Part shown: piece by piece, positions 1,668 through 62,405 of the stretch | Position numbering within the stretch: position 1 is the stretch's first letter | How the letters are laid out: each line of letters begins with the position of its first letter | IMG/VR virus record: IMGVR_UViG_3300031369_000002 | Coordinates: 1 to 64,000 of that record | Source: a virus | Length of the DNA stretch: 64,000 nt | Reading direction: 5' to 3' (one strand) | Notes under the pieces: generated by a model | Told to the model about the DNA's origin: nothing | What the model saw: the letters and a program-made list of their open reading frames with translations, nothing else | Database searches by the model: none | Position numbers and translations under genes: made by a program

Positions 1668-2585
1668 TTAACTAGACTTACGTCTTAAAAATATTGCCCC
1701 TAACTGAGCGGCATCCTCCATAGCTACTAAACTAGCCCCAACACTAAAAGGATTAGGCGGCTCATTGGTATACGTAGCCCCAAGAGTATATCCTACAAAA
1801 TTTTTAACAGGGTTCCAATCACTTGCTATAGGATTAATATAAGAAGTAACTACCCCTTGAATATCCACAGCAACATCAGTAATAAACCCTATCCAATACA
1901 AACCTTTATTTAAAATTATATCCTCTGATAAAACAGTTACACCAGTACTACTAACATCTAATTCCCCATCATAAAGCAACTCCCCAGGATAACCATTGTC
2001 ATTAGCCCAAATAGAAACACACATATTACCAGACAAAGCCGCTACTATGTCAGTTCCTATCCTATCAAAAGTTAAAGTCTCTGGTATTTCCAAAGGTAAT
2101 ACATAATAAGTATCAGCCGAAACAGTTACCGACCTATAAGCAGGAGCTACACTTTTATATTGATTAGGTACATAAACAGGACCTACTTTTCTATTAACTT
2201 CACTTACAATAATAGATTGAGAATCTTTTATATAATCAAAATCTGCTGTTATAGTATCCCCAGGCAACTGTTGACTATTAAAAATAATCAAACCAAAACC
2301 TTTATGTAAAGTATATTCCCCAGAATCAACAGCGACGGCATTTCTATATATTATAGGAGTAGGACTATCTAACCAATTTCTATACCCTCCCGTAGCCTCA
2401 TAAATTCTATACCTCAAAGCTATAACACTCTGATCAATTATAGGAGTTAATTCATGATCGGAGACAGAATCCGAAGATAATCCTAATAAATCCTCAAGTC
2501 TCATTACTCCTTTTGCTATAGCATTTAAATGACCTGATAAAATACTATCTAGAGTACTTAATACTTTAAAATCTGAATTAGCCAT
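1668..2585 (-). CDS. minor tail / baseplate protein
   Basis: 305 residues, not assigned to a named family. An N-terminal helical part (residues 1-45) precedes beta-rich sequence with a segment YRNAVAVDSGEYTLHKGFG (about 100-120) of the kind seen in phage baseplate proteins. The C-terminal half (residues 150-270) resembles a jelly-roll carbohydrate-binding fold (LTFDRIG, MCVSIWANDNGYPGELLYDG). It is the first gene after a strong terminator and its own promoter (2604-2632), so the distal tail genes form a separate transcription unit. Confidence 0.65.
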   Translation of the reverse strand: MANSDFKVLSTLDSILSGHLNAIAKGVMRLEDLLGLSSDSVSDHELTPIIDQSVIALRYRIYEATGGYRNWLDSPTPIIYRNAVAVDSGEYTLHKGFGLIIFNSQQLPGDTITADFDYIKDSQSIIVSEVNRKVGPVYVPNQYKSVAPAYRSVTVSADTYYVLPLEIPETLTFDRIGTDIVAALSGNMCVSIWANDNGYPGELLYDGELDVSSTGVTVLSEDIILNKGLYWIGFITDVAVDIQGVVTSYINPIASDWNPVKNFVGYTLGATYTNEPPNPFSVGASLVAMEDAAQLGAIFLRRKSS

Positions 2586-2603
2586 AATACACCTCCAATC
2601 TTT

Positions 2604-2632
2604 ATTATATCAGCAAACTACACATACGTCAA
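2604..2632 (-). promoter_or_regulatory. sigma-A promoter for distal tail genes
   Basis: Minus strand reads TTGACG, 17 nt, TATAAT. It lies immediately downstream of the terminator at 2643-2661 and would start transcription near 2597, just before the ribosome site of the 305-residue tail gene. It restarts expression after termination behind the Dit gene. Confidence 0.8.
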
Positions 2633-2642
2633 TCAATAGAAA

Positions 2643-2661
2643 AGGCGGCACACCGCCGCCT
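2643..2661 (-). terminator. intrinsic terminator after dit
   Basis: AGGCGGC, 5-nt loop, GCCGCCT, then TTT on the minus strand: a GC-rich 7-bp stem with a U tract, 15 nt after the Dit stop codon. Confidence 0.85.
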
Positions 2662-2675
2662 ATCTGCCTTACAGC

Positions 2676-3422
2676 TTACACCCACCGACTTCGACAAGTC
2701 ACATCTATATCAACGGTGAAATCACTTGTTAAAACATAAAAAGAATTTTCACCAGTAACAGCCTCAAAAAAATCCAAAGAATCTAAATTATTAATAGCAC
2801 TTGTTTTAACTACACCATTTAAAATATAAGCAGTTTTCAACTTAGAATCTATAACTAACTTATCACCTGAGACCATAGTCCCTGTATAATTAATAGTAAC
2901 ACCATTTAAAATTATTTCTATAGTACCACTACCAACAGCAGTAATCTCAATCTTAGGCAAAGAATTTATATTTCCCTTACTCCTAGTAAAATTATGACTA
3001 CCAGTACCATTAAAATTAAAAGTCTCATCCTCTACAGCATACCAATAAGGATCAAAAGCCATAAAATTTAAAGTGCCTGTACCATTTAAAGCTATTAAAT
3101 CTAAAGAAGTATTACCAGATAAAATCGCATTTAAATATTTATCACTCTCATCAGAGAATATTAAAGCCTTAGGCTCAGCCTTTATAAGTTTAGAAGCTAT
3201 ATCCCTTTTAAGACTATGCAAAGCAGTTAAACTATCCTCATATACAACAACATCAACAGGCACCGTTGCAATACCATCCCTTTTATTAATAAATAATTCT
3301 CCATTAGTATTAGTATCCGTTGATTTAACTATCTGATTAATAATTAAATCTCTACCAACATTATTAACAAATAAAAGATTAGAAAAGTCTACTCCATCAA
3401 AACTAAAAGTAACATTAGCCAT
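2676..3422 (-). CDS. dit: distal tail protein (Dit)
   Basis: 248 residues, the usual size of siphovirus Dit proteins, which form the ring joining tail tube to tail tip. The N-terminus (FSFDGVDFSNLLFV), the central ALHSLKRDIASKL helix followed by ALIFSDESDKYLNAIL, and the segment FMAFDPYWYAVEDE then PKIEITAVGSG are typical of the siphovirus-type tail component family. The start codon overlaps the last base of the tape-measure gene, the standard TMP-Dit arrangement. Confidence 0.85.
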   Translation of the reverse strand: MANVTFSFDGVDFSNLLFVNNVGRDLIINQIVKSTDTNTNGELFINKRDGIATVPVDVVVYEDSLTALHSLKRDIASKLIKAEPKALIFSDESDKYLNAILSGNTSLDLIALNGTGTLNFMAFDPYWYAVEDETFNFNGTGSHNFTRSKGNINSLPKIEITAVGSGTIEIILNGVTINYTGTMVSGDKLVIDSKLKTAYILNGVVKTSAINNLDSLDFFEAVTGENSFYVLTSDFTVDIDVTCRSRWV

Positions 3423-6106
3423 TATCTTCGCCTCCCCTCAGACCTATTTTTATTGCCAGTTTTTCTGGCTAAATTAGTAGATACATAAGGAGTAACTACT
3501 CTAGACACTTCACGCCCATCTAAATTAACAGGAACCTCAACAACTATTCTATCCTTTACAAAATCTGATAACTTTTGAGCAAACATACCATTCATATTAG
3601 CATGATTATTACTTAAAACTCTCATTAAGTTAGTATCTCCAATACCAATATCAGATAAATCTCTAAAATTACCTACCATATCTTTCTTCATTTCATGAGA
3701 TTTCAGAGCAATTGCATCCATAGCTCGCTCCAAATATGAAGGCGAATGAATACCTAAACCATCTTTAAAACCTTCCCAAATCTTTTGTCCTGCCTTTTTT
3801 GCGTTATTCCATAAGGTAGACCCTATATTTAATAATTTAGAGGCAACATCACCTAAAATACCTCCAAGTTTAGAGGGTAAACTTGTAATGGCACTAATAA
3901 AACCACTAACCAATTTAGACCCTGCATCCCTGGCCTTAGAAATCAATTGACTACGCCAAGAAGAAACTTTACTAATAGTCTGTAGTAAAAAATTCCAAGC
4001 TTTACCTGGCAAAGTTTGAAAGAAGTTTATAACTCCGTTTAAAAAACTTCTACCTGTTTCAATTGCCTTACTTCTCATCTGAGAACCCCATGAAATAGCT
4101 TTACTTATAGTGCTAGTAAAGAAATTCCATAAGCGACCAGGTAACTGTTGAAAAAACGATATCACAGCAGCTAAAAACTTAGCACCAAGTTCATTAGCTT
4201 TTACTAACATTTGAAGAGTCCACACAATCACCTTAGCTATTATAGTTAAAAATAAATTCCACAGCTTACCAGGTAATTCAGTTACTAAAAACACTATACC
4301 ATCTACAAAAGCCTTACCAACTTTAAGGGCTAACTGTCCTAACTTAATACCAAAATCTATTACAGCCCGTACAGCTTTACCTATAGCAAAACCAAACCAA
4401 TATAATAAATCACTAGGTAAACTCTTAATACCCTCTATAAATTTAGCAGCAGCTTCCCTAGCTTTTGCGGCTAATTGTACTTGCCACTCAACCACCTTAG
4501 CAATAACACCTAATAAAAAGGTCCATATCTTACCTGGCAAAGACTTAAAAAAGTTTACAATAGCATCAATAATACTTCCTATCTTCTCAGGTATTGATTG
4601 AAAAAACGAAACTATAGCACCCCAGACAGAAATAGCAGCAGCTTTTATAGTCTCCCAAACACCCAACAAAAAGGCACTTACAGTATCCCAATTTTTAACT
4701 AATAATACTATAGCAGCTATTAAAGCTATAACACCCAAAACGATCCAAGTTATAGGATTAGCTAATAAAGCCGTAGTAAAAGTCCAGGCCGCCACAGCAG
4801 CACTAGAAAAGGCCATAACTAACGTTGGAAATACCGCCACTATTATCCCTATAGAAGATATCAAATTACCTAAAACCATCAAAATAGGTCCTATAGCCAC
4901 AGCAAAAGCAATGAAACCAGCAACAACACCCTGTAAAGGAGGACTTAATTGAGCATACCAACCGACCAATTTACCAACCACTCCTCCTACCTTTTCTAAA
5001 GCAGGAATCAAAGTATCAGTAACAACAGGAGCCAATTGCTCACCCAAAGAAATCAATAAACCCTCAGTCCTAGATTTTAATGTCCTAAAAGCTCCTCCTA
5101 CATTATCCTCCATAGTAGTAGCCATCTTTTCAGCCGCTCCCTCAGACTCATACATTTTCTTTTCTAACTCTTTATATTTTTTGGAGCCAGTTTCCAGCAT
5201 GATATTGACACCACGAATAGACCTCTCATGGAAAATACCTCCTAAAGCAGCATCTCGCTCAGCCGTAGTCATACCAGCCGTAGCCTTTTCCACATCTCCC
5301 ATAATACTGCCTAAATCTCGCATAGTACCATTAGAATTATAAAGAGCCACAGACATATCACCTATAGCCACTTTACCATCCTCAGCTCCCTTACGCAAAT
5401 CAGTTAACATAGCATTAAAAGTAGTACCTGCCATAGAGCCTTTTATACCACTATTAGCAAGAGTACCCATAACAGCCGCCGTCTGTGCTAAATTCATACC
5501 AGCCGCATGGGCATTAGCACTGGAATATTTAAAAGCCTCACCTAATTGCTCAACACTAGTATTACTTTTTGCCTGAGCTTGTGCAAATATATCAGAAGCT
5601 TTACCAGCCTCAGAAGCTTGCATATTAAAAGCCGACATAGTATCTGTTACTATATCCGCAGCAGTAGCCAACTCTAAAGACCCTGCACTTGCCAAAGACA
5701 ACATAGAAGGTGTAGCCGCTAATATTTGATTAGTATCCCAACCAGCCAGAGCCAAAAAGCCCATAGCATCTGCAGCCTCAGAAGCAGAAAACCTAGTAGT
5801 AGCACCCATATCTTTAGCTTGATCTCTAAGCTTTACCATTTCACCACCAGTGGCCCCACTAACAGCCTTTACCCTAGACATAGAATCATCAAACTTAGCT
5901 ACAGTTTTTATAGCCGCAGCACCTACAGCAACTAAAGGCAAAGTTACATTTTTAGTTAAAGAGCCACCTACTTTACTCATAGTATTCCCTGTAGTAATTA
6001 AACGATTATTTAAACCACTTGTCTGATCGCCTACACCTCTAATAACATTACTAGCTTGATCTATTGCTCTAATCAAAATATTCATTATAGCAGGCATAAA
6101 AGTCAC
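3422..6106 (-). CDS. tail tape measure protein
   Basis: 894 residues. It sets tail length and passes into the host on injection. The N-terminal 350 residues match phage TMP family sequence (DDSMSRVKAVSG, ASEAADAMGFLALAGWD, ALGGIFHERSIRG). Hydrophobic segments occupy about 385-470. From about 475 to 770 there are five or six degenerate repeats of about 53 residues built on LPGKxWNFLL...ISKxxSWxSQ...KAxExG. The C-terminus has GIHSPS, a common TMP signature. Length suggests a tail of roughly 130 nm by the usual 1.5 Angstrom per residue rule. Confidence 0.93.
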   Translation of the reverse strand: MTFMPAIMNILIRAIDQASNVIRGVGDQTSGLNNRLITTGNTMSKVGGSLTKNVTLPLVAVGAAAIKTVAKFDDSMSRVKAVSGATGGEMVKLRDQAKDMGATTRFSASEAADAMGFLALAGWDTNQILAATPSMLSLASAGSLELATAADIVTDTMSAFNMQASEAGKASDIFAQAQAKSNTSVEQLGEAFKYSSANAHAAGMNLAQTAAVMGTLANSGIKGSMAGTTFNAMLTDLRKGAEDGKVAIGDMSVALYNSNGTMRDLGSIMGDVEKATAGMTTAERDAALGGIFHERSIRGVNIMLETGSKKYKELEKKMYESEGAAEKMATTMEDNVGGAFRTLKSRTEGLLISLGEQLAPVVTDTLIPALEKVGGVVGKLVGWYAQLSPPLQGVVAGFIAFAVAIGPILMVLGNLISSIGIIVAVFPTLVMAFSSAAVAAWTFTTALLANPITWIVLGVIALIAAIVLLVKNWDTVSAFLLGVWETIKAAAISVWGAIVSFFQSIPEKIGSIIDAIVNFFKSLPGKIWTFLLGVIAKVVEWQVQLAAKAREAAAKFIEGIKSLPSDLLYWFGFAIGKAVRAVIDFGIKLGQLALKVGKAFVDGIVFLVTELPGKLWNLFLTIIAKVIVWTLQMLVKANELGAKFLAAVISFFQQLPGRLWNFFTSTISKAISWGSQMRSKAIETGRSFLNGVINFFQTLPGKAWNFLLQTISKVSSWRSQLISKARDAGSKLVSGFISAITSLPSKLGGILGDVASKLLNIGSTLWNNAKKAGQKIWEGFKDGLGIHSPSYLERAMDAIALKSHEMKKDMVGNFRDLSDIGIGDTNLMRVLSNNHANMNGMFAQKLSDFVKDRIVVEVPVNLDGREVSRVVTPYVSTNLARKTGNKNRSEGRRR

Positions 6107-6393
6107 CTCCTCTTTTTTCTAGCATTATACATAGCTTTCATAGTCTTTAAATCAGCATTACCACTCTTAGTATTACCAGTCTTAGTCCCAGGTAACCCTT
6201 TATTATTCTCAACCCCATTATCACCCATCATTAATCTATTAATTTCAGGTAAAGCCTCAAGTAAAAATTCCCTTTGCAAAGGTGTTAATTCTCCTTGAGT
6301 AGGGGCTAATTTATAACCATTCACATCCAAGTAAGCAATTCTTAAACCTTCCTCACTCTTTGCGAAATTGTTTGATTGCCTCAGACCTCGCAT
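6103..6393 (-). CDS. tail assembly chaperone, downstream frame
   Basis: 96 residues containing LTPLQREFLLEALPEINRLM, typical of the small protein encoded just before the tape measure. It overlaps the preceding chaperone gene by 41 nt and the TMP start by 4 nt. Its frame is +1 relative to the upstream gene, so expression as a frameshift extension (as in many phages) would need a +1 or -2 shift. An independent ATG at 6393 has only a weak ribosome site (TAGGT). Confidence 0.75.
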   Translation of the reverse strand: MRGLRQSNNFAKSEEGLRIAYLDVNGYKLAPTQGELTPLQREFLLEALPEINRLMMGDNGVENNKGLPGTKTGNTKSGNADLKTMKAMYNARKKRR

Positions 6394-6808
6394 TTTTACC
6401 TATAATTTTTGGAGACACTCCACTTAATTCATATATTTTCTCAGCAATTTTTTTAACTATACCCGCAGGAGTTAACTCTTTAATTTCCTCAATAGTCCAA
6501 GGTTCTTCTTCTACCAAACCAAAACTAACAGCTAAGCAGTCAGCTTCAAACTCAGCAGTAGTGATCTTTTCCATATCCATACTCAAACTCATATTAGACA
6601 TATCTATATTAGATTTATCTTGCATATTAACATCAGGCATGCCAGAAATAGAAACACCACGAGTCCTTATCGCTTCTATCTTTGTCCATTGAGCATCTGT
6701 TAAAGGTCTTAATTGCAATTCACCTTTAAGCTCAGTAAAATACACCCACTCAGTATTAAGAACACCATTTAAAATATCTTTTTTACTTAATTTTTTAATC
6801 TCACTCAC
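6353..6808 (-). CDS. tail assembly chaperone, upstream frame
   Basis: 151 residues encoded between the tail tube and tape measure genes, the position of G-type tail chaperones that coat the tape measure during assembly. Sequence such as LQLRPLTDAQWTKIEAIRTRG fits that family. It ends ...FRKE-stop inside the start of the 96-residue frame. Translation signal: AGGAGGTTATTGTAGTG before ATG. Confidence 0.8.
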   Translation of the reverse strand: MSEIKKLSKKDILNGVLNTEWVYFTELKGELQLRPLTDAQWTKIEAIRTRGVSISGMPDVNMQDKSNIDMSNMSLSMDMEKITTAEFEADCLAVSFGLVEEEPWTIEEIKELTPAGIVKKIAEKIYELSGVSPKIIGKNARSEAIKQFRKE

Positions 6809-6826
6809 TACAATAACCTCCTCACA

Positions 6827-7822
6827 TTAAGCCGATAATGTGGCTATATCGTTTTCCACACTTACCCCTATCTCACTCTCTACCTCACTAGCATCCGCTA
6901 AAGTAATGGTATCCATCAAACATCTACCAGTAACTGACTGCACTATTTCATCTCTAGAGCTAGGTTGCTGTTGGACTTCACTATAAGCAACTTTAGGTAA
7001 AGTGATTTCCATAGAACCATGTGCACCATTATCAAAAGTTAATACTATAGGAATCTCACTAACACCAGTAGCAGCAGGACCAGTAGCACCACCCCAGAAA
7101 TCTTCTAAAACACTGGAATCTTCAAAGAATAACTCCATTGAAATTTCCGTCTCTCTTTCTCCACCAATTACCCGATAAGGATGTCGACTACCTAAACCTC
7201 TGCCAGACTCAGCATCCATATTATTAGATATGGATAAATTTAAAGTTTTAACCTTAGCAGACAAATCAGAGCCATCAATAGTAGCAGTTACCTCATGAAA
7301 AGCCAAAGGATATGCATCAGGTAAAGACAAATCAGCTATAGCCTGAATAGCAGCCTTGGAATCTTTAGCAGCCACAATATCGGCTGTTAAGTTACAAAAT
7401 TCACCCTCTACTTGCAACTCCAAACTATTAATAACACATCCACTAAAAACATGTTCAAAATGATCTTTCCCTACTCTGGCACAAAACGAATCTAATACAT
7501 TATTAGCAGACCCATAAAACTCATGAAGATTTAACGTCCCAGTACCACCCTCACTAGTGAAAACATAAGCACCTAAACCCCATTTTAATAAATAAATAAC
7601 ACTATTAACATCAAAAGCATACATGATATTTCCACTAGGGGCATAAAAACCAGGTCTCTGTAATGTAGCCGATCTTTGTAATCCTCCTCCATAAATAAGA
7701 TTAGGATCAGACGGCGTATCTAAAGAAGCAGAAGCTATATCTAAATGCACTACAGCAGCAGGAGGACTCCCCATATTATAACTTGTCTCCTCAGCTAAAC
7801 CCAAATATCTTTGTACAGCCAT
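6827..7822 (-). CDS. major tail tube protein
   Basis: 331 residues, long for a tail tube protein but correctly placed between the tail completion gene and the chaperones. The N-terminus (AVQRYLGLAEETSYN), the central FEHVFSGCVINSLELQVEG and later VTATIDGSDLSAKVKTLNLSISNN are typical of phage tail tube proteins with a beta-barrel fold. Ring-forming assembly in the virion is known for the family. Good AGGTGTGA ribosome site. Confidence 0.85.
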   Translation of the reverse strand: MAVQRYLGLAEETSYNMGSPPAAVVHLDIASASLDTPSDPNLIYGGGLQRSATLQRPGFYAPSGNIMYAFDVNSVIYLLKWGLGAYVFTSEGGTGTLNLHEFYGSANNVLDSFCARVGKDHFEHVFSGCVINSLELQVEGEFCNLTADIVAAKDSKAAIQAIADLSLPDAYPLAFHEVTATIDGSDLSAKVKTLNLSISNNMDAESGRGLGSRHPYRVIGGERETEISMELFFEDSSVLEDFWGGATGPAATGVSEIPIVLTFDNGAHGSMEITLPKVAYSEVQQQPSSRDEIVQSVTGRCLMDTITLADASEVESEIGVSVENDIATLSA

Positions 7823-13674: not shown

Positions 13675-14544
13675 TTAAACTACACTTATCAAATCCCCCT
13701 CATAAAAATAAGGAGCAGTTGGAGCCGCAGACCCTAAAGGCATTAAATAAGGAACAGTAAAACAACGACAATTTATCCATTCACTTATTGGAGCATTTCT
13801 ATCCCCAGGAAATTGCAACCCATTTGAAAAAGGTTCACCCACTCTAACAATCTGACCATGTAAAGCAATATGATTAGCTCTATCATACCGCCCTAAACCT
13901 CTAACTCTATTATCCAGAGCAGTCATCCACATATGGTACACAACACCCAACTCTAAATCTGACATATAAGAGGATAGATTTTGTGACCCTTGTATTTCAG
14001 TCCTAGCAATTCTTTCAAGTTCCCACCCTCGCATATCTTCAAAAACACTTTCTAATCTACGAGTAGTGTCATAAATACCTAACCCTTTACTATAGCTATC
14101 TGCTAATACTTCCATAACATCCCCAGTCATCCGTCTAATTGTAGACTGAGAAGCTACAAAAACTTGATTTCTTAACAAATCTACAGTAGTAGAGGGTAAA
14201 GTAGACCTAGCTAATTGCCTACCTTGTAATCTTAAATCATTAATAAGCTTTATTCTAGCAGCTTGAGCCGCAGGTTCTACCTCATCAAAAACAACACTAG
14301 CCATATCATCAATAGAACCCCTTAAGTCAGATAATATACTACTACGAGACACATCATCTGAAGGAACACGCCCCAACCTTGATAAATTCCTTAAAACATT
14401 GTTAAAAACTCCACCAAAAAAACTTTTTAATCTATTAATTAAATTAGTCTCAGCATTATTTTTAGCCTTCATTACCTTCAGATAATGGAGAGTTCTCTCC
14501 ACTTCCACCATTGCCTTGAGAGCTATTAAGGGTCGATTCTCCAT
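13675..14544 (-). CDS. minor head protein (Mu F / SPP1 gp7 family)
   Basis: 289 residues. The C-terminal signature DNRVRGLGRYDRANHIALHG ... PGDRNAPISEWINCRC is diagnostic of the phage Mu protein F-like/SPP1 gp7 minor head family, thought to act with the portal in head morphogenesis or DNA ejection. The ATG at 14544 follows AAGGTGA and overlaps the portal gene by 83 nt; a shorter start at 14472 overlapping only the portal stop is possible. Confidence 0.9.
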   Translation of the reverse strand: MENRPLIALKAMVEVERTLHYLKVMKAKNNAETNLINRLKSFFGGVFNNVLRNLSRLGRVPSDDVSRSSILSDLRGSIDDMASVVFDEVEPAAQAARIKLINDLRLQGRQLARSTLPSTTVDLLRNQVFVASQSTIRRMTGDVMEVLADSYSKGLGIYDTTRRLESVFEDMRGWELERIARTEIQGSQNLSSYMSDLELGVVYHMWMTALDNRVRGLGRYDRANHIALHGQIVRVGEPFSNGLQFPGDRNAPISEWINCRCFTVPYLMPLGSAAPTAPYFYEGDLISVV

Positions 14545-22540: not shown

Positions 22541-23671
22541 CTAACTATTAAAGAAACTGGCTACAGCTTCTTTACTTGTAAAATGGGCTGGCTTTTCTAC
22601 TTCTCCTACCATTGGATTAAGCACATAACTTAATCTCAAATAAACAAGACCTAAAGACACTTTATCCCCAGACACTTTAATTTTTCCTTTATACTCCCAC
22701 AATACATTTAACATATTAAAGATAAGTTTAGGAGTTAATTTCTCTGCCAACTCCATATAATTCTCATAACCTTTAACATTATTCTTAGCTAATAAAATGT
22801 TTTTTAAAGTCTCCATAAAAGAATCTACAATTCTCACAACAGAATTAGCTCTATCAAACACCTCCTCCAATAAAACCACGCCCTCAGCCAACTTATTATT
22901 AATTAAACAATTAATTAATTCAAAATAAAAAGATTTATCTATGATTCCAAAGAAATCTTTAAACACCTGAGAAGTTATATGATCAGATATATACTTAAGT
23001 TGATCTAAACACATAACAGCGTCACGCATACCACCATTAACATAATGGGCTATAGCCTGAGCCGCATCCTTATCTAACTTAATATTCTCAGCTTCCGCAA
23101 TAAAAAAGAGTCTATCCATAATATCCTTAACAGAAATCCTCTTATATTCAAAAACTAATAATCTTGATTTAATAGTCTCAGGTACTTTATGGCTCTCAGT
23201 AGTAGCCATAATAAATATAGTATTGCTTGGCGGTTCTTCTAATATCTTTAGTAATGCCTGAAATCCCTGAGTAGAACACCCATGCACTTCATCTATTACT
23301 ATGACTCTATACTCTCCATTATGAGAAGTCATAGCCACATCTTTTAACTTCCTGATATCATCCACTAAACCATTAGAAGCGGCATCTATTTCCAAAACTG
23401 AGGTATCATTAGCCTTGGAAATAGCCACACAAGAAGGACATTTACCACAACTTTTAATACCTTTTCGATCAGAGCAATTTAAAACCCTTGCTATTATTCT
23501 TGCACTAGTAGTCTTACCTATTCCCCTAGAACCACAGAACAATAAACCTGCAGGTAAAGCAGCACCCTTAAAATGTTTATCTAAAATAGCTTCCAAAATC
23601 TTAATAATATGCTCCTGCCCAACCATATCAGATAAATTTAAAGGTCTATATTTTAATGCTAACTTTTCCAT
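22541..23671 (-). CDS. dnaX: DNA polymerase III gamma/tau-type clamp loader
   Basis: 376 residues from ATG 23671 (AGGGGG ribosome site); the 8 codons upstream in the frame are not needed. AAA+ ATPase: Walker A GSRGIGKTT (47-55), zinc site C66, C75, C78, C81, Walker B VIVIDEVH (123-130), sensor ATTES. It ends near residue 376, so it corresponds to gamma and lacks the tau C-terminal part that binds polymerase. It would load the phage's own beta clamp (dnaN at 54519-55619), although the two genes are 31 kb apart. Confidence 0.92.
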   Translation of the reverse strand: MEKLALKYRPLNLSDMVGQEHIIKILEAILDKHFKGAALPAGLLFCGSRGIGKTTSARIIARVLNCSDRKGIKSCGKCPSCVAISKANDTSVLEIDAASNGLVDDIRKLKDVAMTSHNGEYRVIVIDEVHGCSTQGFQALLKILEEPPSNTIFIMATTESHKVPETIKSRLLVFEYKRISVKDIMDRLFFIAEAENIKLDKDAAQAIAHYVNGGMRDAVMCLDQLKYISDHITSQVFKDFFGIIDKSFYFELINCLINNKLAEGVVLLEEVFDRANSVVRIVDSFMETLKNILLAKNNVKGYENYMELAEKLTPKLIFNMLNVLWEYKGKIKVSGDKVSLGLVYLRLSYVLNPMVGEVEKPAHFTSKEAVASFFNS

Positions 23672-23672
23672 A

Positions 23673-23891
23673 CTAAACCCCCTTAACTTTTTCACCTATC
23701 CATACTAAATCCTCAGAAGATAACAACCTATTTTTAGTACCACCACATATAGGACACAAATAAACTAAATGCATGGACCATTTAGAGACTTGCACATTAT
23801 AATTAGTTGTCATTTCAATAGGTTCCTTATGAAATAAACCTGTTTTATTACAATGTGAGTCTAAATAATTACAAAAAACAATCTCTTCCAT
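23673..23891 (-). CDS. small zinc-ribbon-like protein (72 aa)
   Basis: CPIC near residue 46 and two N-terminal cysteines (C7, C14) could complete a zinc site. Stop codon 1 nt from the dnaX start, implying coupling. Function unknown. Confidence 0.6.
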   Translation of the reverse strand: MEEIVFCNYLDSHCNKTGLFHKEPIEMTTNYNVQVSKWSMHLVYLCPICGGTKNRLLSSEDLVWIGEKVKGV

Positions 23892-24629: not shown

Positions 24630-24652
24630 AAAAGAAGCTAAAAGCTCCTTTT
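24630..24652 (-). terminator. intrinsic terminator after radical-SAM gene
   Basis: 8-9-bp stem (AAAGGAGC/GCTTCTTT with one G-U) followed by TTTTTATTTTT; overlaps the stop codon at 24651. Confidence 0.8.
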
Positions 24653-27506
24653 ATTTTATTACTTTATTCTTATCAGCACATTTAGGACAAAAATCAACAC
24701 TTAAAGATTTATCTAAAAAGTTTACAGGAATAGTTTTCCCGCACTCCACACAAGAAGGTCTAAAAAAATCAGCCTGTATATCCTTAAAAGAAACAAAACT
24801 ATCAACTCTTAAAATATTATGCTTATAAGCAGCACCAAACACCTTATTAAATAAAGCATTATATACTTCAAAAGGAGACGCTTTACCTTTAACAAATAAT
24901 TTAAGCTTTACCTCTAATCCTTCTCTCACAGCCCATATATCACTAACAAAATCCTTAGCATTACATTCAATAACATTAAGCCCAGCCCTATAAACAACCT
25001 CTCTAATTTTCATAGTGATTTTTTCAGCCTTATGCCAATAATTAAGGGCATTAATAACAGACATTTCGGTTTTATCCGTATCTATTTGATATAAAGAATA
25101 TCCTTTTTGTTTCTTTAAACTTTCCATAGAAGAGGGTACTTTAATACCATCTAAAAGCTCAATACCAAAATGAGTTAATTCTTTATTCATCTCACTTATT
25201 AAGTTTATTAAATCTGTCTCATTTTTAATAAACTTTTCTAATAAACCAAATTCTACATAATCGATCCCATACAACCAATTTTTAAATTTAATATTATCAG
25301 ACACAAACCTAATACTTCTTTTAGTAATAGGTATATCAGCTTTCCAAGCAGCTCGCCTAATTAAACATTTCCAGTAAACATTTTCTACATACTTATATTT
25401 TTCATGTATACAAATTTTTAATCTCACTTTTTCTCTTATAGTTGATTCATCCTTACGCTTTAAAGAGGATAAATTTTTTAAACTAATATCTTTTTCTCTA
25501 GCCTTATAAGACTCCTGGACCTTTTTTGCTTCTACAGGACTACAAGCCCCACAAGTACTACAACCATGTAGACACTTTTTAACAAGAAAACCATTTTTAT
25601 TAGGTCCTCTATGATCTTCTCCTAACTCTGTATTAAGCATAAAATCACAAGACTTTTTATACAACCTATAAATATAATCTTTAGTTACTCCTATATCAAT
25701 ATGATCCCAACCAAAAATATAATCCCAAGGTTTTTCTTTAAAATAATACTCATAAGACACTCCATATTTCTGCAGGTTCTTTTCTAAAGTTTCTTTCATT
25801 TTACTATTTACGGCTCCTATATAAACAGCATCTAATTCATCATAAGAATCCACCAGAGCATAACCGCCAAGCCTATCACATAAATGAGCTACTTGAGTAC
25901 TCCACAAATAATCCTCTTTTGTTTTTTTGCCTAGTGTAAATTCTATACCTAAATCTCTTAATTTTTGAAAAACACCAGTTAACATCTTTTCTCCTAAAGT
26001 AACCCTATGCCATTGAAAAGGAGTCCAGGATTCAATTAATAAAGGTGTAAAAGAAACCCTAACACCTATAGCGGACCCCATAGAATTCTTTAAATCTACA
26101 ATTTTTTTACACAACTCTAAAAAATCTTCTATATCTTTATCAGACTCAAAAGGCAAGTTAGCTATCATATAAAGTTTTAATTTTTTATATCCACCTTTTA
26201 TAACATTTTCACAAGCTTTTAATATAATTTCCTTAGTAGCCCCTTTATTTACAAAAGTCCTTAATCTCTCTGAGCTTCCTTCTACTCCTACGGCCAATTG
26301 ATTCATGCCACCCTCACCAGATATTAAAGAAAAATTAGCGTCCTCAGCCATACTATCAATCCTCTGAGACTGAGAATCAAAAGTATCAGACACTTCCTCT
26401 AAGATAGTCTTAGTTAATAAATTCTTTTGAGTATATCCAGTATACTCAAAAGCTGTTGGAAAAGCATAAATAGAACCAGAATTTTTAATATTAGCTTTTA
26501 AAGCTTTAACCATATAAGAAATAGACCTTTCCCTATATGGCCTATATCGATACCCTACAGCACAAAAAGAACAATTACCAGCATTACAACCCCTAGCCAA
26601 TTCAACCTCTCCTAAACCCATCTCAGGAAAAATCCAAGGTACTGGAGGAGCATCCACACAAGGCACATTATTTAAATCCTTAACATGTCTTTTTTTAATC
26701 CTCTTAGGTATATCATCATATTTAGCCGCAAAACAATCTATTTTAAGCTCATTATTCACCTTTTTATATTTAGGGTATAAAAACTTAGGCATATATAAGA
26801 AGTCGTATTCTTTAGCTAAAAAATGCAGTAATTCTTCACGTCCTTCTTTAGTATAATAAAAACTCTCAGCTTCCTTTTTAAAAGAGTTAATATCTTCTAA
26901 TACAGCCATTAAACCAGGAGACCCTTTTTCATCCTCAGCCTCTCCAATAAACATAAAATCTACTATAGGACTCCAAATCTCAGGACTCCCAAAAGTCGAA
27001 CCTCCTGAAATAATCAAAGGATAATTTTCTTTCATTTCTTCTCTGTCTTTCCATCTTACAGGAACACCAGACATCTTTAATATTTTAACTACATTCGCTA
27101 AAAATGGAGGGAATCCCAAAGAAAAGCCTACCACATCAAACTCACCCATAGGCCTCTTAGACTCCAAACCAAACACAGGAATCCCCTCAAAATATCTTAA
27201 TTCTTTATGACTAATAGGCATAAAAGACCTTTCAGCTTTAAAGGGTCTTATACCATCCGATCTCCTATACTCATTAATCAATTTATATAATAAAGGTCCT
27301 CCTTGATTACCAACAAAATCTCTATAGCCCCAAGGATTTGCTATTAAAAATTTTAACTCAGCAGCATCCCATTCTTTATAAAATAAATCTTTTCCCCATT
27401 CTCCATAAGTATTACACTCACAACCTAAAAAAGCCTCAGGCATTTCCATTTTAGGCATAATTGAAGTTAAAAATTTTTCTATTTGTATTTTCGTCATTTC
27501 CACCAT
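24651..27506 (-). CDS. B12-type radical-SAM / DUF2344-like fusion protein
   Basis: 951 residues. Residues about 125-195 form a B12-binding-like Rossmann module (VVGFSLGFPPFLANVVKIL, PLIISGGSTFGSPE, VDFMFIGEAE) without the DxHxxG cobalamin-ligand motif. Residues 300-560 are a radical-SAM core; the cluster motif is C307-x4-C312-x2-C315, one residue longer than the canonical CX3CX2C, followed by YRYRPYRERS as in the TIGR03960 family. CLHGCSTCGAC (about 650) is a second cysteine cluster. Residues about 690-890 resemble DUF2344/TIGR03936. A C-terminal CxxC pair (CVEC, CPKC) makes a zinc ribbon. In bacteria the two enzymes are usually separate adjacent genes near RNase G; substrate unknown. Single-gene unit with its own promoter and terminator. 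Confidence 0.88.
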   Translation of the reverse strand: MVEMTKIQIEKFLTSIMPKMEMPEAFLGCECNTYGEWGKDLFYKEWDAAELKFLIANPWGYRDFVGNQGGPLLYKLINEYRRSDGIRPFKAERSFMPISHKELRYFEGIPVFGLESKRPMGEFDVVGFSLGFPPFLANVVKILKMSGVPVRWKDREEMKENYPLIISGGSTFGSPEIWSPIVDFMFIGEAEDEKGSPGLMAVLEDINSFKKEAESFYYTKEGREELLHFLAKEYDFLYMPKFLYPKYKKVNNELKIDCFAAKYDDIPKRIKKRHVKDLNNVPCVDAPPVPWIFPEMGLGEVELARGCNAGNCSFCAVGYRYRPYRERSISYMVKALKANIKNSGSIYAFPTAFEYTGYTQKNLLTKTILEEVSDTFDSQSQRIDSMAEDANFSLISGEGGMNQLAVGVEGSSERLRTFVNKGATKEIILKACENVIKGGYKKLKLYMIANLPFESDKDIEDFLELCKKIVDLKNSMGSAIGVRVSFTPLLIESWTPFQWHRVTLGEKMLTGVFQKLRDLGIEFTLGKKTKEDYLWSTQVAHLCDRLGGYALVDSYDELDAVYIGAVNSKMKETLEKNLQKYGVSYEYYFKEKPWDYIFGWDHIDIGVTKDYIYRLYKKSCDFMLNTELGEDHRGPNKNGFLVKKCLHGCSTCGACSPVEAKKVQESYKAREKDISLKNLSSLKRKDESTIREKVRLKICIHEKYKYVENVYWKCLIRRAAWKADIPITKRSIRFVSDNIKFKNWLYGIDYVEFGLLEKFIKNETDLINLISEMNKELTHFGIELLDGIKVPSSMESLKKQKGYSLYQIDTDKTEMSVINALNYWHKAEKITMKIREVVYRAGLNVIECNAKDFVSDIWAVREGLEVKLKLFVKGKASPFEVYNALFNKVFGAAYKHNILRVDSFVSFKDIQADFFRPSCVECGKTIPVNFLDKSLSVDFCPKCADKNKVIK

Positions 27507-54518: not shown

Positions 54519-55619
54519 CTAATCAAAATCAATTTGTAATTGATTTATAATAGCTAAATTATTATCATGCTCAAATAATAAAGGAGCTTTTCTAGTTTTC
54601 TTATCATCCCCTAATAAAATCTCTAAGTTAGGATTGTCTATACAAGAAATAGCCCCTAATATATGCTCATGATTAACTCCTATAGTTCGATCAGCATATG
54701 ACCAGGACACATCTATTACCTCAGTAGCCATATTACCGTATCTATCCTTAGCCCGCAAAATTAAACTATTCTTTTTTAAAGCCAATAAAACTCCTTTTGT
54801 ATTTTCATCCGCAGTAATCCGCACTCTCCTAATACCCGCTCGCAAAGCTGCCTTATCCACAGATAATTTATATTTATTCTTCCTTGCGGGTTCAACTAAT
54901 AAAGCTTCGACATCAGGATAATCCACATTATTCTTAGTTATTAAAAAGCAATCAATACCTGAGAATACTAATATATGGTCCTCAGTCTCCCCAATACCGA
55001 TATTTTCTGTCTCAGTATTTTTAAGCATTTTTATTAAATCTTCTACAGCTCCAACAGGAAACTGCAAAGATATATCCTTCAAAGCTTCTAATTTAACCTG
55101 TCTAAATATAGCTCCATCAGAAGCCATCACCGACCCTTTAACTACATTAATCATCTGCAAAGCAGGTCTAACAGATTCCTTAGCAGCAGCCCCTTTTACT
55201 TTTAATAAAGCACTTATTAAAGCCAATCTAGGTACATCTATTTTAGTACAAGATTCAATCTTAGGAATCTCAGGATAATCATCAGGATTCATTAAATGTA
55301 TAGACCACTCAGCCCCAGCACACTTAATTAAGGCTTTATCATCAGCCACAGAGATTAAAACTATATCATCCTCACAACCATTAATAATCTCTTTTAAGGT
55401 TTTACCAGGAAATATGGCCTTACCTGAGGACTCTATTTCAATTAAATCACTAGAAGCCCTGATAGAAAGTTCTAAATCAGTAGCTATTATTTCAATGTCT
55501 TTATCTACTTTTATATGAAAGTTTTTAAGTATTGGCATAAAATCGCCTTTTGACAATAATACTGCAGAGGCCTTATTTAATAAAGCCTCTAATACAAATT
55601 TTTTAATCCTAAATTTCAT
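54519..55619 (-). CDS. dnaN: DNA polymerase III beta sliding clamp
   Basis: 366 residues, the standard bacterial clamp length (three domains per monomer). Typical sequence: FMPILKNFHIKVD..., FPGKTLKEII, MNPDDYPEIPKIE (about 108-122), and the second-domain VDYPDVEALL. Replaces or supplements the host clamp; with DnaX (22541) the phage has its own clamp and loader subunit. Overlaps the 83-residue coiled-coil gene by 4 nt. Confidence 0.95.
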   Translation of the reverse strand: MKFRIKKFVLEALLNKASAVLLSKGDFMPILKNFHIKVDKDIEIIATDLELSIRASSDLIEIESSGKAIFPGKTLKEIINGCEDDIVLISVADDKALIKCAGAEWSIHLMNPDDYPEIPKIESCTKIDVPRLALISALLKVKGAAAKESVRPALQMINVVKGSVMASDGAIFRQVKLEALKDISLQFPVGAVEDLIKMLKNTETENIGIGETEDHILVFSGIDCFLITKNNVDYPDVEALLVEPARKNKYKLSVDKAALRAGIRRVRITADENTKGVLLALKKNSLILRAKDRYGNMATEVIDVSWSYADRTIGVNHEHILGAISCIDNPNLEILLGDDKKTRKAPLLFEHDNNLAIINQLQIDFD

Positions 55620-61048: not shown

Positions 61049-62251
61049 CTATAAAGAGACTGTTTTATTTTTATTATTTGTCTCTTCTAATAATTCCTCA
61101 GGCAACTCTTGAATCGGTCCATCTTCGACTAAAGCGTAACTATCCTCTATTTCCGTTCTAGTCTCCATATACTTCATATCTTTATCAATGGCATCTTGTA
61201 AATCCTTTGATAAAACTTTAAAACCTTTAACCCCAGCCTCTCTAAAATATGTGCATACTTTTTCCAAGCCTTGAATATTTTTTTCCTCTTTATCATGCCT
61301 ATATTTAGCAGGCACTTTTAAAAAGGCTCCATTCTTTTTAATCATTTTTCTATCAATAGCCACAAGTATAATAGACATTACATCATCTACACCTATACCA
61401 TAGCGAATAATAAACTCACAAGACCTAAAAGGCGGGGCAACTTTATTTTTAATAAGTTCACATTTAATTTTAGTGGCCACTAATCCATCTTCCCACTCAC
61501 CTTTTATCGCATTAAATATTTTACCTTTTACTCCACCTATCTTAGTAAATTTTAATCTCATAGTAGAATAAAATTTTAAAGCAGACCCACCAGGAGTCGT
61601 CTCTTTTTTAATTCCCTTTGCCTTTTCAAAAGGAGTCATAGGCAAGCCAATCCTCAATTGATTTATAAAAGCAAAAGCTACATTAGTAGTTGAACATATA
61701 CCCGCCAACTTCTTTAAAGTCTGAGCCATAATCCTAGCACCATGAGCGACACCACCTGCAGTAGGATCACCAATCTCCCCTTCCATTTCAGCCTGAGTCT
61801 TCATAGCTGCAACGGAATCAGCTATAACCAACCCTATAAACCCAGTTTTCATATAGAACTCAGCTATACGAAATCCTTGCTCCATATATGTTGGTTGTAC
61901 ATAAATAAACTTATCATCCGATAAATCTACTCCTTGAGCGATCATATATTTTTTATCAAGAGCATGCTCATAATCTAAATACAACACAGCTTTTTTTAAA
62001 ACCTTTTGACATTGTACAGCACAACTACTCATCACCGTAGTCTTACCCGAACTCTCTAGACCATAACATTCTATAATACGGCCTAAAGGTATGCCTCCAA
62101 TACCAGTTATATAATCTATTAAAAAGCTACCTGTAGAAATATGAGGCATAGGTTTAACTTTGCCCTCCAAAGATATTATAGTGTCATCACCCTCAATACC
62201 TAAAATATGTTTTTTAGCATCGTCCAAAGTTTTTATAACAGTTTTAGCCAT
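61049..62251 (-). CDS. recA: RecA recombinase
   Basis: 400 residues from ATG 62251 (GAGGAGG upstream). Walker A GLESSGKTT (64-72), ISTGSFLIDYITGIGGIPLG entry strand, Walker B LVIADSVAAM, AFINQLRIG and GGSALKFYST motifs of RecA. Longer than bacterial RecA (about 350) because of a divergent C-terminal tail. Provides strand exchange for phage recombination-dependent replication with SbcCD and RuvC-like enzymes. Confidence 0.94.
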   Translation of the reverse strand: MAKTVIKTLDDAKKHILGIEGDDTIISLEGKVKPMPHISTGSFLIDYITGIGGIPLGRIIECYGLESSGKTTVMSSCAVQCQKVLKKAVLYLDYEHALDKKYMIAQGVDLSDDKFIYVQPTYMEQGFRIAEFYMKTGFIGLVIADSVAAMKTQAEMEGEIGDPTAGGVAHGARIMAQTLKKLAGICSTTNVAFAFINQLRIGLPMTPFEKAKGIKKETTPGGSALKFYSTMRLKFTKIGGVKGKIFNAIKGEWEDGLVATKIKCELIKNKVAPPFRSCEFIIRYGIGVDDVMSIILVAIDRKMIKKNGAFLKVPAKYRHDKEEKNIQGLEKVCTYFREAGVKGFKVLSKDLQDAIDKDMKYMETRTEIEDSYALVEDGPIQELPEELLEETNNKNKTVSL

Positions 62252-62405
62252 TACTATCCTCCTCTTTAACACAATCCTTAATTCCTTGATAATTACATGT
62301 GCCTACTTGAGTCAGATCATACTTACTTTTAGGTCCATATCTAAAATAAGTACATCCCGAACATTTAGCCCAGCACTCTTGTATTTCTCCTAAATCTCTA
62401 CCCAT
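62244..62405 (-). CDS. cysteine-rich small protein (53 aa)
   Basis: ATG 62405 after GAGGAG. Cysteines in CWAKCSGCTYF, then C and C (GTCNYQGIKDC), enough for a zinc or Fe-S site. Overlaps the recA start by 8 nt, so translated together. Confidence 0.6.
   Translation of the reverse strand: MGRDLGEIQECWAKCSGCTYFRYGPKSKYDLTQVGTCNYQGIKDCVKEEDSNG

Follow-up and report, generated by a model that had tools for sequence, protein, structure and literature searches.

A tail assembly chaperone gene very likely expressed by programmed +1 frameshifting at a UUU_C site conserved among prokaryotic tailed viruses

That tail chaperone genes undergo frameshifting, mostly in the -1 direction, is textbook knowledge; the lambda G/GT case was reportedly described by Xu, Hendrix and Duda in 2004. 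The locus studied here raises the question of how a chaperone-like gene could be continued into an overlapping downstream frame that a -1 shift does not reach. It lies in a 64 kb stretch of DNA (the window) out of a virus record of 88,665 bases, on whose minus strand terminase, portal, MuF-like, capsid and connector genes are followed by the tail tube gene, a chaperone-like ORF (TAC1), an ORF in the +1 frame and the tape measure gene. Two overlapping ORFs between tail tube and tape measure are also what lambda G/GT-type chaperone loci contain. The tail tube protein (6827-7822, minus strand) and the tape measure protein (3422-6106, minus strand) were identified by family matches, the former to Phage_tube_2 (PF18906); the latter is listed with a GTG start, and an ATG at 6097, after AGGAGGTGA, appears to be the likelier one. 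The portal and MuF-like genes also overlap in +1 register, by about 83 nt (14462-14544, minus strand), but this is probably a plain overlap, because the MuF-like ORF starts from an ATG of its own. No tRNA genes were found in the window.

TAC1 (6353-6808, minus strand) encodes 151 residues from a GTG start, has homologues, and is preceded by a ribosome-binding site, GAGGAGG, read from the sequence at 6823-6817. A listed ORF of 96 residues (6393-6103, minus strand) overlaps it. The low-end register changes from 2 to 1 modulo 3, which places the second frame at +1 (or -2) relative to the first, as the preliminary description had stated. It had also held that the -1 frame meets a TGA at once, which is roughly right: stops flank the site in that frame, a TGA at 6383-6381 and a TAA at 6344-6342, so that a canonical -1 shift on X_XXY_YYZ fails here and +1 is needed. 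In the zero frame the message reads ATC AAA CAA UUU CGC AAA GAG UGA, with the UGA at 6355-6353, and its last six codons agree with the earlier reading.

TAC1 itself falls below all curated family cut-offs, the values being E 0.016 for PF08890 and E 0.048 for phrog_4976. Nevertheless, its AlphaFold model (12 sequences, pLDDT 72.6) has the HK97 tail assembly chaperone 2ob9 as top match in the PDB (probability 0.99, E 0.044), and retrieves from BFVD the protein of the Methanobacterium virus Drs3 first, followed by several annotated chaperones. Three further IMG/VR contigs, at 97-98% identity, carry the same arrangement, while a comparison of TAC1 with a plasmid collection gave no match. The nearest named relatives are archaeal viruses: Drs3, with 31.9% identity over 61% of TAC1 (E 4e-5), and, found through the tail tube, PhiF3 and Methanobrevibacter smithii tailed virus 1 (MSTV1). 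Their TAC1 homologues match the tail assembly chaperone family phrog_344 (E 5e-6 to 1e-4), and in all three the gene is followed by a +1-frame ORF homologous to the downstream ORF of the window. These ORFs have in common the consensus NF..S.EG..I..LD..GYKL...Q.DLTPLQ..F, which in the T-like domain of the window takes the form GYKL..TQ.ELTPLQ..F, and the codons at the junction are AAA_UUU_CCU in Drs3, CAA_UUU_CAU in PhiF3 and GAA_UUU_CGU in MSTV1. Judging from these homologues, the two ORFs very probably constitute a single gene read by way of a +1 frameshift. For the window virus, an archaeal host was considered, given that the nearest named homologues infect Methanobacterium, and set aside; the virus carries DnaX-, DnaN- and RecA-like proteins (22541-23695, 54519-55619 and 61049-62272, minus strand), which makes a bacterial host the likelier one. 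A 951-residue B12-binding radical SAM protein (24651-27506, minus strand; TIGR03960-like, below the cut-off) is an odd viral cargo.

The candidate shift site (6362-6367, minus strand) has UUU at 6367-6365 in the P site, CGC at 6364-6362 in the A site and CAA at 6370-6368 in the E site. With UUU and CGC so placed, peptidyl-tRNA-Phe would slip one base forward onto UUC (6366-6364), a full cognate codon, as the preliminary description had proposed, and reading would resume as GCA AAG AGU into the +1 ORF. The resulting extension, running from the shift-site codons AAU UUC to the stop (6103-6369, minus strand), corresponds to the T-like domain, whose homologues are the +1 ORFs in Drs3, PhiF3, MSTV1 and viral contigs, and the predicted transframe fusion TAC1-T (6103-6808, minus strand) would have 234 residues, TTTC being read as a single Phe. 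Most ribosomes would stop at the UGA and yield TAC1, and a minority would yield TAC1-T. In lambda, the proportion between the short and the long chaperone governs the coating of the tape measure protein and then the recruitment of the tail tube protein; by analogy, the ratio of TAC1 to TAC1-T may let the tape measure be coated before tail tube protein is recruited. What the sequences show is the gene order, the frames, the site, its conservation across viruses of bacteria and archaea, the codon signature and the lack of starts in relatives; slippage, its efficiency and this role are inferred. In-phase UUU_C occurs elsewhere in the window at a frequency of 0.0030, so that one such site in the 15-codon overlap, with a chance of 0.044, is not striking by itself; what is striking is its conservation.

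To evaluate that conservation, which had been put forward as a check, loci were gathered with TAC1, the +1 domain, the tail tube or the tape measure as homology queries. Several of the alignments used (A2-A4) start with the shift-site Phe (UUC) of the +1 frame or with the residue preceding it, which favours +1 loci but does not require the preceding U. The collected set comprised 36 loci from bacterial phages, Bacilli prophages, methanogen viruses and haloarchaeal viruses, which formed 22 clusters with less than 50% identity between them (clustering at 50% over 80 residues). Searches of viral contigs with profiles, and one genome scan, contributed +1 loci (L018, L019, L023, L024, L025, L027, L030, L040, L042, L068, L069 and L070) as well as loci in need of a -1 shift (L026, L028/L041 and L029). 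The initial location of the sites relied on protein tags picked after the sequences had been read. Counts exclude HHTV-1 (L011), which has other ORFs between tube and tape measure, L078 (a weak match without phage context), L073 and L002, the last having been read but not counted. They also exclude duplicates (L071 has the sequence of L051, L067 that of L050 and L041 that of L028, so that 13 rows classed as -1 become 12) and repeat fetches of the same places (L072, L074-L077, L005-L008, L015-L017, L020-L022, L033-L039, L048, L066 and L082-L084).

Exactly one in-phase UUU_C was found in the ORF overlap of every one of the 22 clusters, against 0.97 expected, which supports the proposed UUU-to-UUC slippage. 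A simple codon model based on each locus's own in-phase UUU_C frequency and overlap length gives a log10 P of -34.7 for all 22; as the clusters share ancestry yet are counted as independent, this and the other P values overstate independence. The Phe codon at the sites is UUU in 22/22 clusters (9.9 expected), even where UUU makes up only 3% (L042), 8% (L081) or 12% (HRTV-27) of Phe codons. Moreover, the neighbouring codons are restricted: the A site holds CGC or CGU in 16 of 22 clusters, compared with 5 of the 93 other in-phase UUU_C sites of the same loci (p 8e-11), and the E site holds UCC in 8 of 22 compared with 1 of 93 (p 4e-6). None of these 93 background sites reads UCC_UUU_CG. The other six clusters have CCU, CAU, CUU or CAA in the A site (UUU_CAA in L054). 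The UUU-CGC motif named in the preliminary description was therefore right in its UUU_C core but too narrow, and is better widened to UUU_C with CGY preferred.

A sample chosen without reference to the +1 domain was provided by the class Bacilli, where 398 genomes were searched with the tube family PF18906; 14 matched, 12 of them over the cut-off, and one locus was classified per genome (12), dropping L055 and L056 (below the cut-off) and L057 (a second tube copy). A +1 shift is needed in six of these loci (L047, L050-L054) and a -1 shift in the other six (L043-L046, L048, L049); UUU_C is present in 6/6 of the former and 0/6 of the latter (Fisher p 0.002). Overall, among 12 distinct -1 loci, 11 have X_XXY_YYZ and one has an in-phase UUU_C (L026, inside A_AAU_UUU_C), while L065 has neither. 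L065 came from a search of 296 genomes of the phylum of L042, in which two matched, L042's own (+1) and L065's (-1, without the motif). The L065 pair (2274-3061) is tube-linked and chaperone-like, with 26% GC and no X_XXY_YYZ in its overlap. The direction of the shift switches within one homologous chaperone family, as the related loci L026, L028/L041 and L029 use -1 heptamers (A_AAU_UUU, A_AAA_AAG and G_GGA_AAC) instead of UUU_C.

The haloarchaeal viruses were reached through HRTV-25, by a weak match of the +1 domain (E 6). The TAC1 of HRTV-25 has 53 matching records, and in the eight examined (L031, L058-L064) UUU_CGY stands in phase at the junction. In five of these eight (L031, L061, L062, L063 and L064), the chaperone is nevertheless labelled a "putative programmed translational -2 frameshift". 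A -2 shift as in phage Mu, two bases back into the same frame with one extra residue, is indeed permitted by the frame arithmetic. However, a Mu-type shift requires the P-site tRNA to re-pair two bases upstream, and the codon found there is CCU, AAU, CGU, AGU, CAU or ACU in 21 of 22 clusters (AAU in the window; UUU only in L054), on which tRNA-Phe cannot re-pair, whereas the +1 codon is UUC in all 22. In addition, the signature matches UCC_UUU_CGU, for which a +1 shift was shown by mass spectrometry in influenza (PMC3498833). A -2 shift is therefore very improbable, and slippage by +1 is the economical reading.

Equally improbable is that the downstream ORF is translated as a separate 96-residue protein, with no fusion, through independent initiation at the ATG at 6393 (6391-6393, minus strand) or through translational coupling. 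The window does have this in-frame ATG, which a weak AGGU precedes by 4 nt, and MSTV1 annotates a separate ORF from a GTG right after UUU_C. However, the window ATG is not conserved and lies upstream of the part homologous to relatives, where the residues before NF have no counterpart, and it is probably unused. No ATG, GTG or TTG precedes the conserved core of the +1 ORF in members of 6 of 22 clusters, the start-less ORFs including those of Drs3, PhiF3, L018, L023, L047, L053 and the Bacillus subtilis phage BSP7; in Drs3 and PhiF3 a stop stands just upstream in the +1 frame. Independent initiation would also leave UUU_C without a reason for its conservation. That the two ORFs come from a sequencing mistake or from disruption of the gene, the split being the one argument for this, can be practically dismissed, since the arrangement recurs in the three further IMG/VR contigs and is kept in 22 clusters.

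Altogether, we are confident that this is a tail assembly chaperone gene of the lambda G/GT type whose long form would be made by programmed +1 frameshifting. As for what might promote the slip, CGC had been suspected of being a slow codon, and the codon counts support this: it is the rarest sense codon in the window (5 of 14,508 codons in 53 ORFs), which fits a hungry A site. In Salmonella, wild-type tRNA-Phe slips +1 at UUU-CAA under a shortage of the A-site tRNA (PMC3617221). Slow decoding in the A site may not be a general feature, however, as the codons named as rare in Halorubrum in the halovirus text consulted are TTT and AGA, not CGC (PMC7230728). Folding of 12 sites revealed no conserved 3' RNA structure that could act as a stimulator (z -2.24 to +1.36), and no Shine-Dalgarno-like element stands upstream at a fixed spacing, its distance being variable in 13 of 22 clusters and the element absent in 9 of 22.

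The codon signature is shared with eukaryotic viruses. Influenza A PA-X is produced by the +1 shift at UCC_UUU_CGU mentioned above, and the same work predicted that UUU_C sites with a limited choice of A- and E-site codons form a class (PMC3498833); UUU_CGN has been described for plant amalgaviruses (PMC5052127). The loci studied here resemble both systems in the P-site UUU_C, in the preference for CGN in the A site (CGC in the window) and in the direction of the shift, and four of them (L027, L051, L052 and L070) have the nine bases UCC_UUU_CGU identical to those of influenza. They differ in belonging to tail chaperone genes of DNA viruses of bacteria and archaea, read by ribosomes from other domains; compared with influenza, the window has CAA rather than UCC in the E site, and the A site in the set can be CCU, CAU, CUU or CAA. 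With lambda G/GT, whose -1 frameshift has been described (PMC5009743), they share the gene order, the proposed two-product logic and a putative chaperone-like fold, but would shift by +1 on UUU_C rather than by -1 on X_XXY_YYZ, the form used by the related loci L026, L028/L041 and L029. Listeria phage and SPP1 have +1 frameshifts in tail genes (PMC3498833), the direction and the setting in a phage structural gene being alike but the gene another one.

The same chaperone gene was considered earlier in a report on HF1-group haloviruses, which we take to be that of Dyall-Smith and colleagues (2020). There, TTT-CGC was noticed in six viruses and compared with eukaryotic viruses (PMC7230728), and in another report the shift of HSTV-2 was termed "very likely +1" (PMC5009743). 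The gene, its place, TTT-CGC and the proposed +1 direction agree with ours; the HF1-group report deals with one haloarchaeal group, whereas the present set adds bacterial phages, methanogen viruses, a second chaperone family and codon controls. The second family is that of BSP7, fetched only as a tape-measure relative, whose chaperone belongs to another PHROG family, phrog_6280 (function unknown); UUU_CGU is present in 4/4 loci, those of BSP7 and its relatives Youna2, Dulem virus 36 and L081. In the BSP7 group (L013, 2623-2634; L079, L080 and L081) the +1 ORF after UUU_CGU has no fusion annotation. Within the searched literature, in which subscription papers are poorly covered, there was no report of the UUU_C motif in bacterial phages or methanogen viruses, and the motif appears to have been noted before only for the HF1 group, in the text consulted (PMC7230728).

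Judged by sequence, the window belongs to a broad class of loci with a UUU_C +1 signal and the codon preferences of influenza and amalgaviruses. As relatives among both bacterial and archaeal viruses keep it, UUU_C looks like a widespread, largely unrecognised prokaryotic signal with a conserved three-codon signature. We lean towards the view that UCC/xAA_UUU_CGY may be a general +1 signal for the tailed viruses of prokaryotes, shared in bacteria and archaea by at least two tail chaperone families without detected similarity. As the same three-codon signal serves influenza and amalgaviruses, this would point to a property of P-site tRNA-Phe with A-site CGN common to the ribosomes of all three domains. 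Annotations would be corrected, both for the unmarked +1 ORFs of Drs3, PhiF3 and BSP7 and for the "-2" labels of several haloarchaeal records. Moreover, BSP7 and its relatives would offer laboratory-tractable systems for finding out the reason that +1 slippage is favoured by UCC and CGY, which the influenza work, in the text consulted, left unanswered (PMC3498833).
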